DNA from: Candidatus Staskawiczbacteria bacterium
Lineage (GTDB): Bacteria > Patescibacteriota > Minisyncoccia > Minisyncoccales > Staskawiczbacteraceae
DNA length: 49,164 nucleotides
Assembly: GCA_023245145.1 (NCBI GenBank)
Contig: JAHFKW010000003.1
Span: forward strand, 49,659 to 98,822
Direction of reading: 5' to 3'
Under the pieces are notes generated by a model. The model was not told the DNA's origin, did no database searches, and saw only the letters and a program-made list of their open reading frames with translations. Both the position numbers and the translations under genes were made by a program. Positions within the stretch are counted from its first letter, which is position 1; each line of letters opens with the position of its first letter. Shown piece after piece: positions 5,447-47,605 of the stretch.

Positions 5447-5462
5447 AATAAGTGTATTATAC

Positions 5463-5509
5463 TAAATATCAAAAGCCTCGGTCAAGACCGCAGGTTAAAA
5501 AACATTGCT
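5463..5509. repeat. 47-bp direct repeat, copy 1 (att-like)
   Basis: Identical to 6770-6816. With one mismatch the match extends four bases further (to 5514), into sequence equivalent to the acceptor end of tRNA-Asn. The core 'ggtcaagacc' is palindromic. The minus strand of this copy carries a possible -35 for the gene at 5147-5446. The two copies bracket a 1.26-kb two-gene segment. Confidence 0.85.
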
Positions 5510-5586
5510 ACCCCTTGGGTAAAAAGTCCGAATGTGCTTTGTAGGAGTTTAATTACGTCTTTCTAGGATTATTGAGTTGAATAGAC

Positions 5587-6756: not shown

Positions 6757-6769
6757 GGTACCTTTATTT

Positions 6770-6816
6770 TAAATATCAAAAGCCTCGGTCAAGACCGCAG
6801 GTTAAAAAACATTGCT
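6770..6816. repeat. 47-bp direct repeat, copy 2, abutting tRNA-Asn
   Basis: Identical to 5463-5509. Its last two bases are the 3' end of the tRNA-Asn gene. On the minus strand, T6 follows the tRNA by a few nucleotides and the palindromic core then ends in cTTTT, so it may also act as the tRNA terminator. Confidence 0.85.
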
Positions 6817-6886
6817 CCCCCGGTAGGATTCGAACCTACGACCCTCTCGTTAACAGCGAGACGCTCTACCGCTGAGCTACAGGGGA
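6815..6886 (-). tRNA. tRNA-Asn (anticodon GTT)
   Basis: A 72-nt cloverleaf read on the minus strand. The acceptor stem is TCCCCTG / CGGGGGA with one T-G pair and discriminator G. The D arm is GCTC-AGCGGTA-GAGC. The anticodon stem is TCTCG / CGAGA with loop CTGTTAA, giving anticodon GTT. The T arm is GTAGG-TTCGAAT-CCTAC. The 3' CCA is not encoded, so it must be added after transcription. Confidence 0.97.
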
Positions 6887-13081: not shown

Positions 13082-13771
13082 ATGCAAAAAAACAAAGTGG
13101 CGATATTTGACATTGACGGCACCATATTTCGATCCAGCCTTTTGATTGAAGTGGTGGAGGCGTTGGTGGAAGCAAAATTATTTCCTCAAAAAACGGCGTA
13201 TGGGTATAAAAAATCGCATGAGGATTGGCTTAACCGACGCGGTTTGTACGAAGATTATATTATGGATGTGGTACGGGTGTTTGAAGAAAATATAAAAAAT
13301 GTTCGGCACGCGGATTTTATGCGGATTTCCAAACAGGTAATTGCTTTGCATAAATATCACACGTATGTGTACACGCGTGATTTAATCAAAAGTTTAAAAA
13401 AACAAGGCTATTTTATTTTGGCCATTTCGCATTCTCCCAAAGAGATATTGGATGAGTTTTGTGCGGAATACGGATTTGATAAAGTCTATGGCCGAGTATA
13501 TGAAGTGGGGTCGGATGGAAAGTTTACGGGCAAGACTTTATATTTGGAGGAAATTTCGGATAAGGCCAAGATTTTAAGACGGTTTATTGCCAAGGAGGGA
13601 TTAAGCTTGGCAGATTCGGTGGGGGTGGGGGATTCGGAAAGTGACATTAAGTTTTTAACATTCGTTGAACAGCCGATTTGCTTTAATCCCAATAAAAATT
13701 TATATGAACATGCCAAAAAACATGGTTGGAAAGTGGTGGTTGAGCGCAAAGATGTGATATATAATTTCTAA
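13082..13771 (+). CDS. HAD-IB family phosphatase (SerB-like)
   Basis: I take the ATG at 13082 (229 residues, 'MQKNKVAIFDIDGTIF'); the track start at 13046 adds 12 residues with no homology and lies upstream of TACAAT (13069-13074), which is 7 nt before the chosen ATG. HAD motifs are 'FDIDGTIFRSS', 'ILAISHSP', and 'VGVGDSESDIKFL'. The helical cap between motifs I and II fits HAD-IB phosphatases (phosphoserine phosphatase group). The substrate is uncertain. The stop codon lies within the 9-mer repeat array that leads into the SDR gene. Confidence 0.88.
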   Translation: MQKNKVAIFDIDGTIFRSSLLIEVVEALVEAKLFPQKTAYGYKKSHEDWLNRRGLYEDYIMDVVRVFEENIKNVRHADFMRISKQVIALHKYHTYVYTRDLIKSLKKQGYFILAISHSPKEILDEFCAEYGFDKVYGRVYEVGSDGKFTGKTLYLEEISDKAKILRRFIAKEGLSLADSVGVGDSESDIKFLTFVEQPICFNPNKNLYEHAKKHGWKVVVERKDVIYNF

Positions 13772-13800
13772 TTAACCTAATTATTCTAATTGACCTAATT
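13765..13800. repeat. Period-9 micro-repeat (NNNctaatt) x4
   Basis: Four 9-mers, 'tttctaatt', 'aacctaatt', 'attctaatt' and 'gacctaatt', fill the gap from the HAD stop codon to 2 nt before the SDR start. The same unit type recurs before atpD at 37851. Confidence 0.85.
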
Positions 13801-27470: not shown

Positions 27471-27485
27471 CCCCGCTAAGCGGGG
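27471..27485 (+). terminator. Weak terminator-like hairpin
   Basis: CCCCGC-TAA-GCGGGG forms a 6-bp GC stem immediately after the stop of the large prepilin, followed by AT-rich sequence without a clean T-run. It may only attenuate readthrough to the next pilin gene. Confidence 0.45.
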
Positions 27486-27518
27486 AATTTCAAATTTTTA
27501 ATTTTAAATTTTAAATAA

Positions 27519-27556
27519 TTGACTTCAAATTTTAAATTTCAAACTTCAAATTCACA
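27519..27556. repeat. 38-bp AT-rich micro-repeat cassette, copy 1 (in frame)
   Basis: It matches 33572-33609 at 35 of 38 positions. It is built from 'ttcaaattt/aacttcaaa' units. Here it is read as coding sequence and supplies the TTG start and leader of the prepilin gene. Confidence 0.85.
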
Positions 27557-28157
27557 GAAAGGCTTCACTATTTTAGAATTACTAGTGGCCGTATCTATTT
27601 TTGGTGGTTTGGCTATTTTAGTGGCACTGCTATTTTCTGATGTGTTTTCCGGTTCAAAACAGCAATTGTTGGCGGTTGACAATGTTGAGCAGTCTCGTTT
27701 GGTTGCCTCTCAATTTTTAAATGAAATGCGCAATGCCACCACGGGTGTGAGCGGTGAATATTCTTTGGGGCAAGCAGGTGACCAGCAGATTATTTTTTAT
27801 TCCAAAACTACGGGTACGTCCACTGTTAACCGAATTCGTTATTATGTTTCCGGAACAAAATTATACAAAGGAGTGGTGATTCCTACGGGCAATCCGCTGA
27901 CGTATAATTTGGGATCTGAAGTTGTAAAAGTGGCACAAAATGATTTGACCAATGGCACGGGGCAAGTATTTACATATTATGGCGATACTTACAGTGGCTC
28001 AGAAAATTCTTTGACTCAGCCCATTAACTTAACTGCAGTAAAATTTGTTAAAATTAATTTGACGGTGCTCACCCAAGCTAAAAATAATAGTAATACCACT
28101 TACTCCATCAGCGAAGGAGTCACGATACGGAATTTAAAAACCAATTTAGGAAATTAA
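27519..28157 (+). CDS. Prepilin-like protein, GspJ/minor pilin type, TTG start
   Basis: A 212-residue protein with the prepilin site 'QKGFTILELLVAVSIFGGL' (cleavage after Gly, Glu5 present). The leader 'MTSNFKFQTSNSQ' is encoded entirely by the micro-repeat cassette. The TTG at 27519 is the only plausible start I see in frame, since no ATG or GTG lies between the upstream stop and the cleavage site. The C-terminal part is a beta-rich minor-pilin domain ('RIRYYVSGTKLYKGVVIPTG'). It is probably cleaved by a prepilin peptidase encoded elsewhere. It abuts the next gene. Confidence 0.82.
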   Translation: MTSNFKFQTSNSQKGFTILELLVAVSIFGGLAILVALLFSDVFSGSKQQLLAVDNVEQSRLVASQFLNEMRNATTGVSGEYSLGQAGDQQIIFYSKTTGTSTVNRIRYYVSGTKLYKGVVIPTGNPLTYNLGSEVVKVAQNDLTNGTGQVFTYYGDTYSGSENSLTQPINLTAVKFVKINLTVLTQAKNNSNTTYSISEGVTIRNLKTNLGN

Positions 28158-33492: not shown

Positions 33493-33568
33493 TCAATTAT
33501 ATAAATATAATTAATTTTCAATTTGTAATTTGAATTCAATTTGAAATATTCTAATATTTAATTTTTAA

Positions 33569-33844
<276 letters not shown>

Positions 33845-36195: not shown

Positions 36196-36225
36196 ATATG
36201 GAATCGGTTCAAAACTTAAAAAAAC
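36196..36225. repeat. Duplicated 5' end of atpG, upstream copy
   Basis: Thirty bases match 36888-36917 with two differences, both synonymous in the MESVQNLKK reading. The two copies bracket the NYN gene. Confidence 0.92.
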
Positions 36226-36327: not shown

Positions 36328-36888
36328 ATGGAAAGTAAAAGAATAATGATTTTTATTGATGGCGGGAATTTCTATTTTAAATTGAAAGAAATGTCCCAAA
36401 AGCTTAATAAAAGATACAGTCTTCTTAGTTTTAGGTTTAGAGATTTTTGTGAGTGGTTGGTCGGAGAAAATAAGTTATTGGAAATAAAATATTATCTTGG
36501 TGCAATAACCAGGGAATTAAATAACGAAAAAAGCGAAAAAATGTACACCAACCAGCAAAGGTTGTTTAGGAAGCTGCAAGCTCAAAATATCACCATTGTC
36601 TTGGGACAGCTCATCCGTCATCCCGATAAAACATATCACGAAAAAGGAGTTGATGTAAGAATGGCCGTGGAAATGATTAGATTTGCCAGAGAAGATAAGT
36701 ATGATGTAGCATACTTGTTAAGTTCGGATACCGATTTGGTGCCGGCGGTGGAAGAGGTTCGGGCTTTTGGTAAAAAAGTTACCTACGTTGGTTTTCCAAA
36801 GGGTCAGTCGTTTGGATTATCTAAAACTGCCAACGATGTTATTTTATTGAGGACGGAAGAGGTAGAAAAATTCTTAAAACTAGCTTAA
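36328..36888 (+). CDS. NYN domain (PIN-like, LabA/DUF88) protein
   Basis: A 186-residue single-domain protein. The first acidic residue is in 'IMIFIDGGNFYFKL'. 'KGVDVRMAVEMIRFA' and 'YDVAYLLSSDTDLVPAVEEV' carry the other conserved acidic residues of the metal site. NYN domains are related to PIN nucleases and act on RNA; LabA-like members have other roles. The gene has its own promoter and attenuator-like hairpin and is bounded by a duplicated atpG start, so it appears to be an insertion. No antitoxin partner is adjacent. Confidence 0.88.
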   Translation: MESKRIMIFIDGGNFYFKLKEMSQKLNKRYSLLSFRFRDFCEWLVGENKLLEIKYYLGAITRELNNEKSEKMYTNQQRLFRKLQAQNITIVLGQLIRHPDKTYHEKGVDVRMAVEMIRFAREDKYDVAYLLSSDTDLVPAVEEVRAFGKKVTYVGFPKGQSFGLSKTANDVILLRTEEVEKFLKLA

Positions 36889-36917
36889 TATGGAATCGGT
36901 TCAGAATTTAAAAAAAC
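36888..36917. repeat. Duplicated 5' end of atpG, downstream (functional) copy
   Basis: The start of the intact atpG gene; 28 of 30 bases match 36196-36225. Confidence 0.92.
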
Positions 36918-37846
36918 GACTCAAATCAGTCGCCAATATCAAAAAAATCACCAAGGCCATGGAGTTGGTGGCGGCTACGAAAATGAGGAGGTCTCAGGAG
37001 ATTGCTTTAAGTTCCAGACCGTATGCCCTTGTTGCATTGGATTTATTGGCAAATTTGACATTGATAGAAAAAAGAAGGGGATTAAAAATGCCGGAGTTAC
37101 TTGAGCAAAGAAAAATCAAGAAAGTACTATTTGTGCTGGTGGCGTCAGATAAGGGGTTGGCAGGAGCATTTAATAGTTCGTTATTCAAAAAATTCGAAAA
37201 GTATATTGCAGAGAATAAGCAACACTACGAAAAAGAAGAAAAGATTTTTGCCGCGGTGGGTGAAAAATCTTTCCAATATTTATCAAAAAAGCATTGGAAT
37301 ATAGTCAAAAAGTTTGTTAATGTAGGGGATTACACCGCCATGGGGCAAGTACAACCCATCACCGATTTTATTATTACGGGGTATTTGGAAAAACAATGGG
37401 ATAGGGTAGTGGTATTTTCAACCCACTTTAAATCAGCTTTAAAACAGGAAGCAATGGTGAGGAGAGTCTTACCGGTTGATTTTGACCATGTGAAAGAAAC
37501 GGTTGGCGACATTATTCCGCAAACAGGAAAGTTTGCTGAACTCATGAAAAAACAAAATCTGGTATTTACGGGAAGCGAAAAAAGTGAAAAAGAGTACGTA
37601 ATAGAACCGACACCAGAGTTGGTATTGGAGCAATTGGCAAAACACTTACTTTTTATGCAGATTTACCACGTAATTTTAGAGGCCAATGCTTCCGAACATT
37701 CGGCTCGAAGAATGGCCATGAAAACCGCTTCTGATAATGCTAGTGATTTAGGTCAAACATTGAATTTACAGTATAATAAAGTCCGACAAGCAAGCATCAC
37801 TAATCAAATCATTGAAATTAGCGCGGGAGCGGAGGCGCAGACATAA
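36890..37846 (+). CDS. atpG: ATP synthase F1 subunit gamma
   Basis: A 318-residue rotor shaft, longer than the usual 285-295. The N-terminal coiled coil is 'LKKRLKSVANIKKITKAMEL' followed by 'VAATKMRRSQ'. The C-terminal coiled coil is 'EHSARRMAMKTASDNASDLG' through 'QASITNQIIEISAGAEA'. The extra length lies in the central Rossmann-like part. The gene starts 1 nt after the NYN stop. It ends directly before a period-9 micro-repeat array that runs into atpD. Confidence 0.96.
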   Translation: MESVQNLKKRLKSVANIKKITKAMELVAATKMRRSQEIALSSRPYALVALDLLANLTLIEKRRGLKMPELLEQRKIKKVLFVLVASDKGLAGAFNSSLFKKFEKYIAENKQHYEKEEKIFAAVGEKSFQYLSKKHWNIVKKFVNVGDYTAMGQVQPITDFIITGYLEKQWDRVVVFSTHFKSALKQEAMVRRVLPVDFDHVKETVGDIIPQTGKFAELMKKQNLVFTGSEKSEKEYVIEPTPELVLEQLAKHLLFMQIYHVILEANASEHSARRMAMKTASDNASDLGQTLNLQYNKVRQASITNQIIEISAGAEAQT

Positions 37847-39273
<1,427 letters not shown>

Positions 39274-39284
39274 AATTTATAATA

Positions 39285-44212: not shown

Positions 44213-44297
44213 CATGACAGTTGACATTCGGGGTATATAGGCTAAAATGACCTAAAGTGTAGATAAATTCAAAATGAGTACAAGGTCGAAACAAATT

Positions 44298-44377
44298 AGA
44301 AGCTAGTATCTAGAAGCTAGAATCTAGAGTACGGCAAATAAATAATTCTAGATTCTAAATACTAGATTCTAGATTCT
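44298..44377. repeat. Inverted micro-repeat before the DUF5679 gene
   Basis: Left part: 'agaagctagtatct' then 'agaagctagaatct'. Right part (44346-44377) repeats the complement type 'ctagattct'. The halves could form a hairpin ending 6 nt before the ATG at 44384. The rest of the 44213-44383 gap shows no gene. Confidence 0.8.
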
Positions 44378-44383
44378 CAAAAA

Positions 44384-44548
44384 ATGGCAACAGAAGCATA
44401 TTGTGTAAAGTGCAAGGCAAAACGAATGATGAAAGACGCCAAAGAGGTTTCCATGAAGGGGAAGGGTGGAAAAACCAGAGCGGCTATGACGGGGACCTGT
44501 GAAAAATGCGGCACAAAAATGTTTAGGATTATGGGAGTCAAGAAATAA
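44384..44548 (+). CDS. DUF5679 zinc-ribbon protein
   Basis: A 54-residue gene too short for the ORF track. It begins 'MATEAYCVKCKAKRMM' and ends near 'TGTCEKCGTKMFRIMG', giving two CxxC pairs that should bind one zinc. The start, spacing and 'MKDAKEV' strand fit DUF5679, a small family of unknown function. It follows an inverted micro-repeat and lies 23 nt before the SWIB gene, so the two may be co-transcribed. Confidence 0.85.
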   Translation: MATEAYCVKCKAKRMMKDAKEVSMKGKGGKTRAAMTGTCEKCGTKMFRIMGVKK

Positions 44549-47526: not shown

Positions 47527-47566
47527 AAAATAACATTAAAAATTATAAATTTCAAATCACATATTA

Positions 47567-47591
47567 TTTGTAATTTGTTGTTTGTAATTTG
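47567..47591. repeat. AT-rich micro-repeat before the response regulator
   Basis: 'tttgtaatttg' occurs at 47567-47577 and 47581-47591. It is part of a 79-nt AT-rich gap of similar units. Confidence 0.65.
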
Positions 47592-47605
47592 GAATTAAAA
47601 ATCTT

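Follow-up and report, generated by a model that had tools for sequence, protein, structure and literature searches.

Does a short repeat that lies across the beginning of a prepilin gene supply the gene's start codon and leader peptide? The question arises in a stretch of 49,164 nucleotides from a Candidatus Staskawiczbacteria (Patescibacteria) genome (the window, below, means this whole stretch), where a 38-bp sequence had been predicted to precede both a prepilin gene and atpE, to be translated at the first and to stay outside the second. We found that the match is real: positions 27519-27556 (TTGACTTCAAATTTTAAATTTCAAACTTCAAATTCACA) and 33572-33609 (TTGATTTCAAATTTTAAACTTCAAATTTCAAATTCACA) are identical at 35 of 38 positions, the best 38-mer match in 40 dinucleotide shuffles of the window being 26, and window sites other than the two arrays score at most 25 against the 38-mer. 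The similarity spans 61 bp at 85% identity and takes in an A+T-rich centre ahead of the array. Both copies are tandem arrays of period 7 with the unit [CT]TT[CT]AAA, and they extend by TRF over 27486-27552 (9.6 copies) at the prepilin gene and 33575-33605 (4.4 copies) at atpE. The features of the two loci are:

27471-27485, + strand: short G+C-rich hairpin, CCCCGCTAAGCGGGG, between the stop of an upstream prepilin gene and the array; folds as a stem
27486-27552, + strand: degenerate period-7 array, its 5' half untranslated and its 3' half predicted to be translated; 21-nt period score 78 (TRF)
27516-27518, + strand: in-frame TAA, immediately 5' of the TTG
27519-28157, + strand: type IV prepilin-like gene, 212 aa; PF07963 E 3.7e-5, TIGR02532 above cut-off
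27519-27563, + strand: repeat-derived TTG, the putative start, and prepilin leader MTSNFKFQTSNSQKG; predicted cleavage after Gly
33493-33613, + strand: atpB-atpE spacer, which folds as a long imperfect hairpin with the heptamer array on its 3' side as one arm; MFE -20.0 kcal/mol, z -3.2
33572-33609, + strand: the repeat's second copy; 4 nt separate its end from the ATG of atpE
33614-33844, + strand: atpE, with conserved ATG; PF00137 and homologues

Heptamer arrays in the window and the genus

The original prediction saw in the two copies a specific cassette shared by two operons. Instead, there are many heptamer arrays in the genome and the genus. TRF reports about seven period-7 arrays of various units in the 49-kb window, among them:

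39253-39283, + strand: period-7 array (AATTTCT) that overlaps the 3' end of atpD and encodes its last residues, ISNF
44297-44377, + strand: inverted pair of heptamer arrays (CTAGAAT / ATTCTAG), a strong hairpin (-29.8 kcal/mol for 44280-44400)
47566-47596, + strand: period-7 array (ATTTGTA) ending 9 nt before the ATG (47606) of a response-regulator gene

Among intergenic tandem repeats in loci of this genome and its relatives, fetched regardless of repeats, period 7 accounts for 32 of 92 rows and the next period, 8, for 18. Autocorrelation peaks at 7, 14 and 21 in intergenic sequence and has no such peaks in coding sequence. The units are many and inverted pairs are frequent; in the genus, arrays often lie directly upstream of start codons and often form one arm of an intergenic hairpin. 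Genome-wide counts come from pattern searches and fetched stretches. For the exact TTTCAAA 21-mer, they list 51 places, spread over 18 of 287 genomes from the phylum (a mirrored control gave 1 match). When at most one mismatch is allowed, a 22-mer occurs in 24 of the family's 36 genomes, with 3 merged sites in the window's own genome and more at two mismatches. The search for further copies that had been proposed as a check thus returns many more than two, and the 38-bp match is a local likeness of two arrays out of a class that runs through the whole genome and the genus.

The window holds other repeats as well. Nonamer tandem arrays (TCTAATTAA/AATTAATCT) occupy spacers at 13766-13800 and 37846-37888, one of them just before atpD, and a 58-bp repeat with the core AGCCTCGGTCAAGACCGCAGG occurs at 5457-5514 and 6764-6821, 1.3 kb apart and 95% identical. 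A 30-bp direct repeat (93%; 36196-36225 and 36888-36917) contains the atpG start and flanks an open reading frame at 36328-36888, which suggests that this frame was inserted with duplication of the atpG start.

The start and leader of the prepilin

The prepilin gene clusters with PilB-, PilC- and PilM-like genes. It had been labelled GspJ-like, but the GspJ model TIGR01711 gives 18.0 bits against a cut-off of 64.85, ComGF falls far under its own, and only the general prepilin models PF07963 and TIGR02532 pass. By these models the processing site, QKG/FTILELLVAVSIFGGLAILVA, has Gly-1, a hydrophobic tract and Glu5, and the N_methyl match (PF07963) begins at residue 11. Because an in-frame TAA occupies 27516-27518, no start further upstream is possible, and TTG 27519 is the sole ATG, GTG or TTG between that stop and the GFTILEL motif. 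The repeat contributes this TTG and about 13 of the 15 leader residues. Thus, the sequence bears out both the proposal that start and leader are built of the repeat and the claim that there is no alternative in-frame start. TTG is an unusual start, it has no Shine-Dalgarno sequence, and it lies in a weakly folding region.

With TTG as the start, the 15-residue leader fits the class III rule (6-26 aa, mostly hydrophilic, neutral). The earlier term 'export leader' is inexact: leaders of class III are removed and remain on the cytoplasmic side, and it is the hydrophobic helix behind them that enters the membrane (PMC4471445). Initiation at the TTG and cleavage of the leader are what we infer from the sequence. 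The G+C-rich hairpin that abuts the array (27471-27485), of the form CCCGCT[AC]AGCGGG, also occurs in frame within a heptamer-derived loop of Pth in the same genome (L265).

The orthologue in a congener, G011, has the same layout as the window's gene (G000), with a TTG and four heptamers at the same place; what appeared to be a frameshift in it is a run of N in the assembly. The G011 and G000 prepilins are 61% identical, with differences of 0.31, 0.19 and 0.55 at the three codon positions. Third positions diverge most, 0.55 compared to 0.19 at second positions, and the gene is therefore under purifying selection. The G004 prepilin has a short ATG leader without repeat, MQEK/GFT, and is 79% identical to that of G011, each of the two being about 60% identical to that of G000. 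As G011 and G000 carry a repeat leader and G004 does not, there were either two gains, or one gain followed by loss in G004. The usual leader in the family is short, begins with ATG and lies close behind the upstream gene. The comparison of relatives, named beforehand as a possible refutation, thus cuts two ways: G004 and most of the family do have a short ATG leader without repeat, while another start here is not indicated. It shows the repeat leader to be a derived, labile state.

We surveyed 73 prepilins from 13 genomes of the genus Candidatus Staskawiczbacteria, counting an array wherever matches at lag 7 reached 17 or more out of 21 in the 100 nt ahead of Gly-1. Arrays precede 20 of the 73, about a quarter. 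Scores at lag 7 are bimodal, 17-21 and then 14 or less, and no prepilin among the 73 reaches the threshold at lags 4-6 or 8-12. In other genes an array was found in 4 of 165 (Fisher p 2.6e-8), a modest baseline whose spacer lengths are unmatched. A start codon lies inside the array or at its edge in all 20 cases. No start lies 3' of the array in 15, and one lies downstream in the other 5; another start is present upstream in 8. The array start is the sole start in 8, one of which, in G002, is a weak A-rich case. These genomes are metagenome-assembled, one per species, starts are inferred, and open reading frames in fetched loci were called mechanically.

The heptamers of these leaders vary. 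TTTCAAA leaders occur in G000, G003, G008 and G011, a CAAAAAT leader in G011 (MQKSKIKNQKSK/GFT), ATGTTCC leaders in G010 and G012 (MFYVPCSMKKR/GFT), and GTCAAAT-type leaders in G001, G003 and G007 (MSNVNCQMSIVNCRQR/GFT). GTTAGAT is also among the heptamers of prepilin arrays, and in some congeners the array is a perfect four-unit one.

In the family outside the genus, 1 of 61 prepilins has an array. A scan of 85,462 species genomes for an array together with the prepilin motif gave 11 sites with TTTCAAA leaders, for example MKISNFKFQISTS/GFTLLELL and MNKISNFKFQISNKEK/GFTLVEL. Ten belong by title to Patescibacteria (Blackburnbacteria, Gottesmanbacteria, Levybacteria/Levyibacteriota, Staskawiczbacteria, Microgenomates, Parcubacteria). 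The eleventh coincides with the site in G177, a genome of that phylum. Five viral contigs contain the 28-mer, and none of the five has array and prepilin motif together. In sets chosen by the array, there are 9 cases where the array is the N-terminus of a protein; Pfam identifies 5 of them as prepilins, and another 2 look pilin-like on inspection.

Two further observations concern this machinery. In Levybacteria loci L126 and L129, the prepilin-leader array is interrupted by a further translated repeat-like stretch, which reads TTCGACAAGCTCAGGACAAG in L126 and has a similar sequence in L129, and in L148 (G020) an in-frame TTTCAAA array lies within the prepilin peptidase gene itself.

Collectively, these data favour an explanation that we consider quite probable from the comparison of sequences. 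Heptamer arrays of the long-simple-sequence-repeat (LSSR) type, lying near start codons, would have been absorbed into open reading frames; here, an array with a TTG at its 5' edge would have displaced the ancestral short ATG leader of the prepilin. The ribosome would initiate at the TTG and read the repeat as a 15-residue leader, which prepilin peptidase would remove after Gly-1, and the same capture would have occurred many times with different heptamers. The explanation builds on what is directly observed, namely the sequence, its periodicity, its recurrence and the absence of another start. Read on this strand, a TTTCAAA array meets no stop in any of the three frames, and its product is always the cyclic heptapeptide ISNFKFQ; the opposite strand has TGA in every frame. 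Because a stop-free heptamer array has Lys, Ser, Asn and Gln, its product satisfies the class III leader rules, and because such a leader need only be short, hydrophilic or neutral and Gly-ended, the repeat leader is probably tolerated and not selected for its sequence. The repeat as such probably has no function.

Arrays at atpE and in other genes, and what else they might mean

At atpE the repeat lies outside the gene, as had been predicted: homologues in relatives begin with MD or ME at ATG 33614. TTG 33572 is in frame with atpE, so an open reading frame finder extends the gene. Starts can thus be miscalled both ways, with atpE called too long and prepilins missed or called too short. The atpB-atpE spacer is one long hairpin in most congeners (z -2.3 to -13.5) and not in G002; its heptamers differ per species, and its 3' arm sits beside the ATG. 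The hairpin may plausibly have a role in expression. An ATG likewise follows an array at S8, L2, L27, YebC, RRF, Pyk and HolA, as at AtpE, in genes with conserved N-termini, and since the ATG is 3' of the array, the array is not part of the known protein.

Elsewhere, arrays lie within genes. Of 81 arrays in sets for which the array was the only criterion, about 30 fall within genes supported by Pfam. In the window's own genome these genes are MurC, TatD and PolX, and in other genomes Pth, GatA, RNase HII, LeuRS, ArgRS, KsgA, RsmH, PGK, UvrB and others. The arrays are in frame and occupy variable segments of conserved genes (MurC, Pth, GatA), and orthologues reuse the same site in MurC, Pth, GatA and PolX. 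The variable loop of Pth (peptidyl-tRNA hydrolase) has 11-19 residues and is 18 aa long in many species, with heptamers that differ by species (TTTCAAA, TTTCAAG, GCTTCAA, CTACAAG, ATGTCAA, ATTCGAA and others); L268, L284, L285 and L276, among the family's Pth loci L258-L287, are examples. Ten of 26 Pth loops pass the lag-7 test and none passes at other lags. Telomere-like CCTAAAC heptamers are present in the Pth loop of L272 (G029) and in the atpE spacer hairpin of L064 (G012).

Simple insertion of an element fails as a general rule, with array-bearing segments (14-19 aa in Pth, 15 and 20 in MurC) within or near the array-free range. We tentatively raise the idea of a process that rewrites heptamer arrays at fixed positions, keeping place and approximate length while the 7-mer changes between species, even within a conserved gene; this is a possibility to which we give a minority of the weight. 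Were it true, it would have produced the Pth loop, the hairpin of the atpB-atpE spacer and the prepilin leaders alike.

Of the other explanations for the prepilin locus, one gives the array a function as a 5' leader or hairpin that serves translation or the stability of the mRNA, with its overlap of the prepilin start accidental. Consistent with this, arrays lie directly ahead of the ATG of rpsH, rplB, rpmA, yebC, frr, pyk and atpE, the atpB-atpE spacer keeps its hairpin in most congeners while the heptamers differ, and in Beggiatoaceae, start codons that lack a Shine-Dalgarno sequence have similar TAACTGA heptamers ahead of them (PMC4679880). However, the prepilin has no separate downstream start and folds weakly there, and for this gene we regard the idea as possible but doubtful. 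At the other genes it may hold in addition to the translated-leader explanation of the prepilin.

Transposition of a mobile cassette, MITE or REP-like, into both operons is an unlikely origin of the two copies. In its favour, the 61-bp similarity takes in the A+T-rich centre that leads into the array, and G000 C8:109437 is a third site of similar architecture, ahead of an ATG; against this, we saw no terminal repeats or target duplications, the heptamer at one site (atpE spacer, Pth loop) differs by species, which local turnover fits better, and the genome and family search yielded many arrays with varying units. Phase variation would turn the pilin off and on by frameshifts, each caused by gain or loss of a 7-nt unit between the start and the body of the pilin. 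In its favour, the array separates the sole start from the coding body, its unit length of 7 is not divisible by 3, some congeners have perfect four-unit arrays, and a Haemophilus influenzae adhesin is switched by 7-bp promoter tracts (PMC8262952). Yet the array here is degenerate, so slippage should be lower; G000 and G011 keep the same unit number despite 61% identity; and heptamers that bear an ATG give a start in every frame, which buffers slippage. We hold it to be improbable at this gene, though if unit number varies within a species, pilus phase variation would be directly testable in these bacteria. That the prepilin is a pseudogene with a lost start and an untranslated repeat is very improbable, for although the original ATG is missing and the TTG lacks a Shine-Dalgarno sequence, the 212-codon frame is open, the prepilin motif is intact, third-position bias relative to orthologues is strong, and G011, its apparent break only a run of N, is in the same state.

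Heptamer repeats and known systems

Captured arrays would mean that heptamer repeats become protein, providing starts and leaders for about a quarter of the genus's prepilins and loops of conserved enzymes, and would offer a countable natural system for the entry of repeat DNA into coding sequence. Heptamers are reported to be the commonest long simple repeats in many bacterial genomes and their placement just before starts is known (PMC4692102; PMC4679880), although the detailed literature on them is described as scant; Rickettsia provides known examples of housekeeping genes that carry repeats in frame (PMC3767692). In the open-access literature we found heptamer arrays described neither as leaders of prepilins nor within genes of Patescibacteria, and no paper on the peptide ISNFKFQ or on repeats in CPR genomes.

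The closest likeness is to the heptanucleotide LSSR of cyanobacteria and Xanthomonas, which have a 7-nt unit, usually about four of them, in intergenic positions and sometimes in inverted pairs, with sequence and length varying between relatives (PMC4692102). The arrays described here share the 7-nt tandem periodicity, by TRF and at lag 7, at many loci per genome, but are A+T-rich where LSSR are G4-forming, and many are translated within conserved genes or as prepilin leaders. The TAACTGA direct repeats of marine Beggiatoaceae also lie just upstream of starts, mostly without Shine-Dalgarno (PMC4679880); however, TAACTGA has stops in all forward frames and is unabsorbable into an open reading frame, whereas TTTCAAA is open in all three.

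The palindromic elements (RPE) in protein-coding genes of Rickettsia and Wolbachia are likewise repeat DNA kept in frame where a housekeeping protein tolerates it, and orthologues share the site (PMC3767692). They are palindromic insertions of 100-150 bp, whereas the arrays here, which also reside in frame in genes, are heptamers over 28-50 bp of which only some are hairpin-paired, and the length of the Pth segment is nearly conserved while its heptamer changes. Tandem repeats of Borg elements have also turned into protein sequence; they belong to archaeal extrachromosomal elements and form new disordered regions (PMC9879509). Finally, the prepilin leader resembles class III signal peptides in being hydrophilic, within 6-26 residues and Gly-ended, followed by a hydrophobic tract with Glu5 (PMC4471445), and it differs from them in that it would be a translated tandem repeat with a TTG start.
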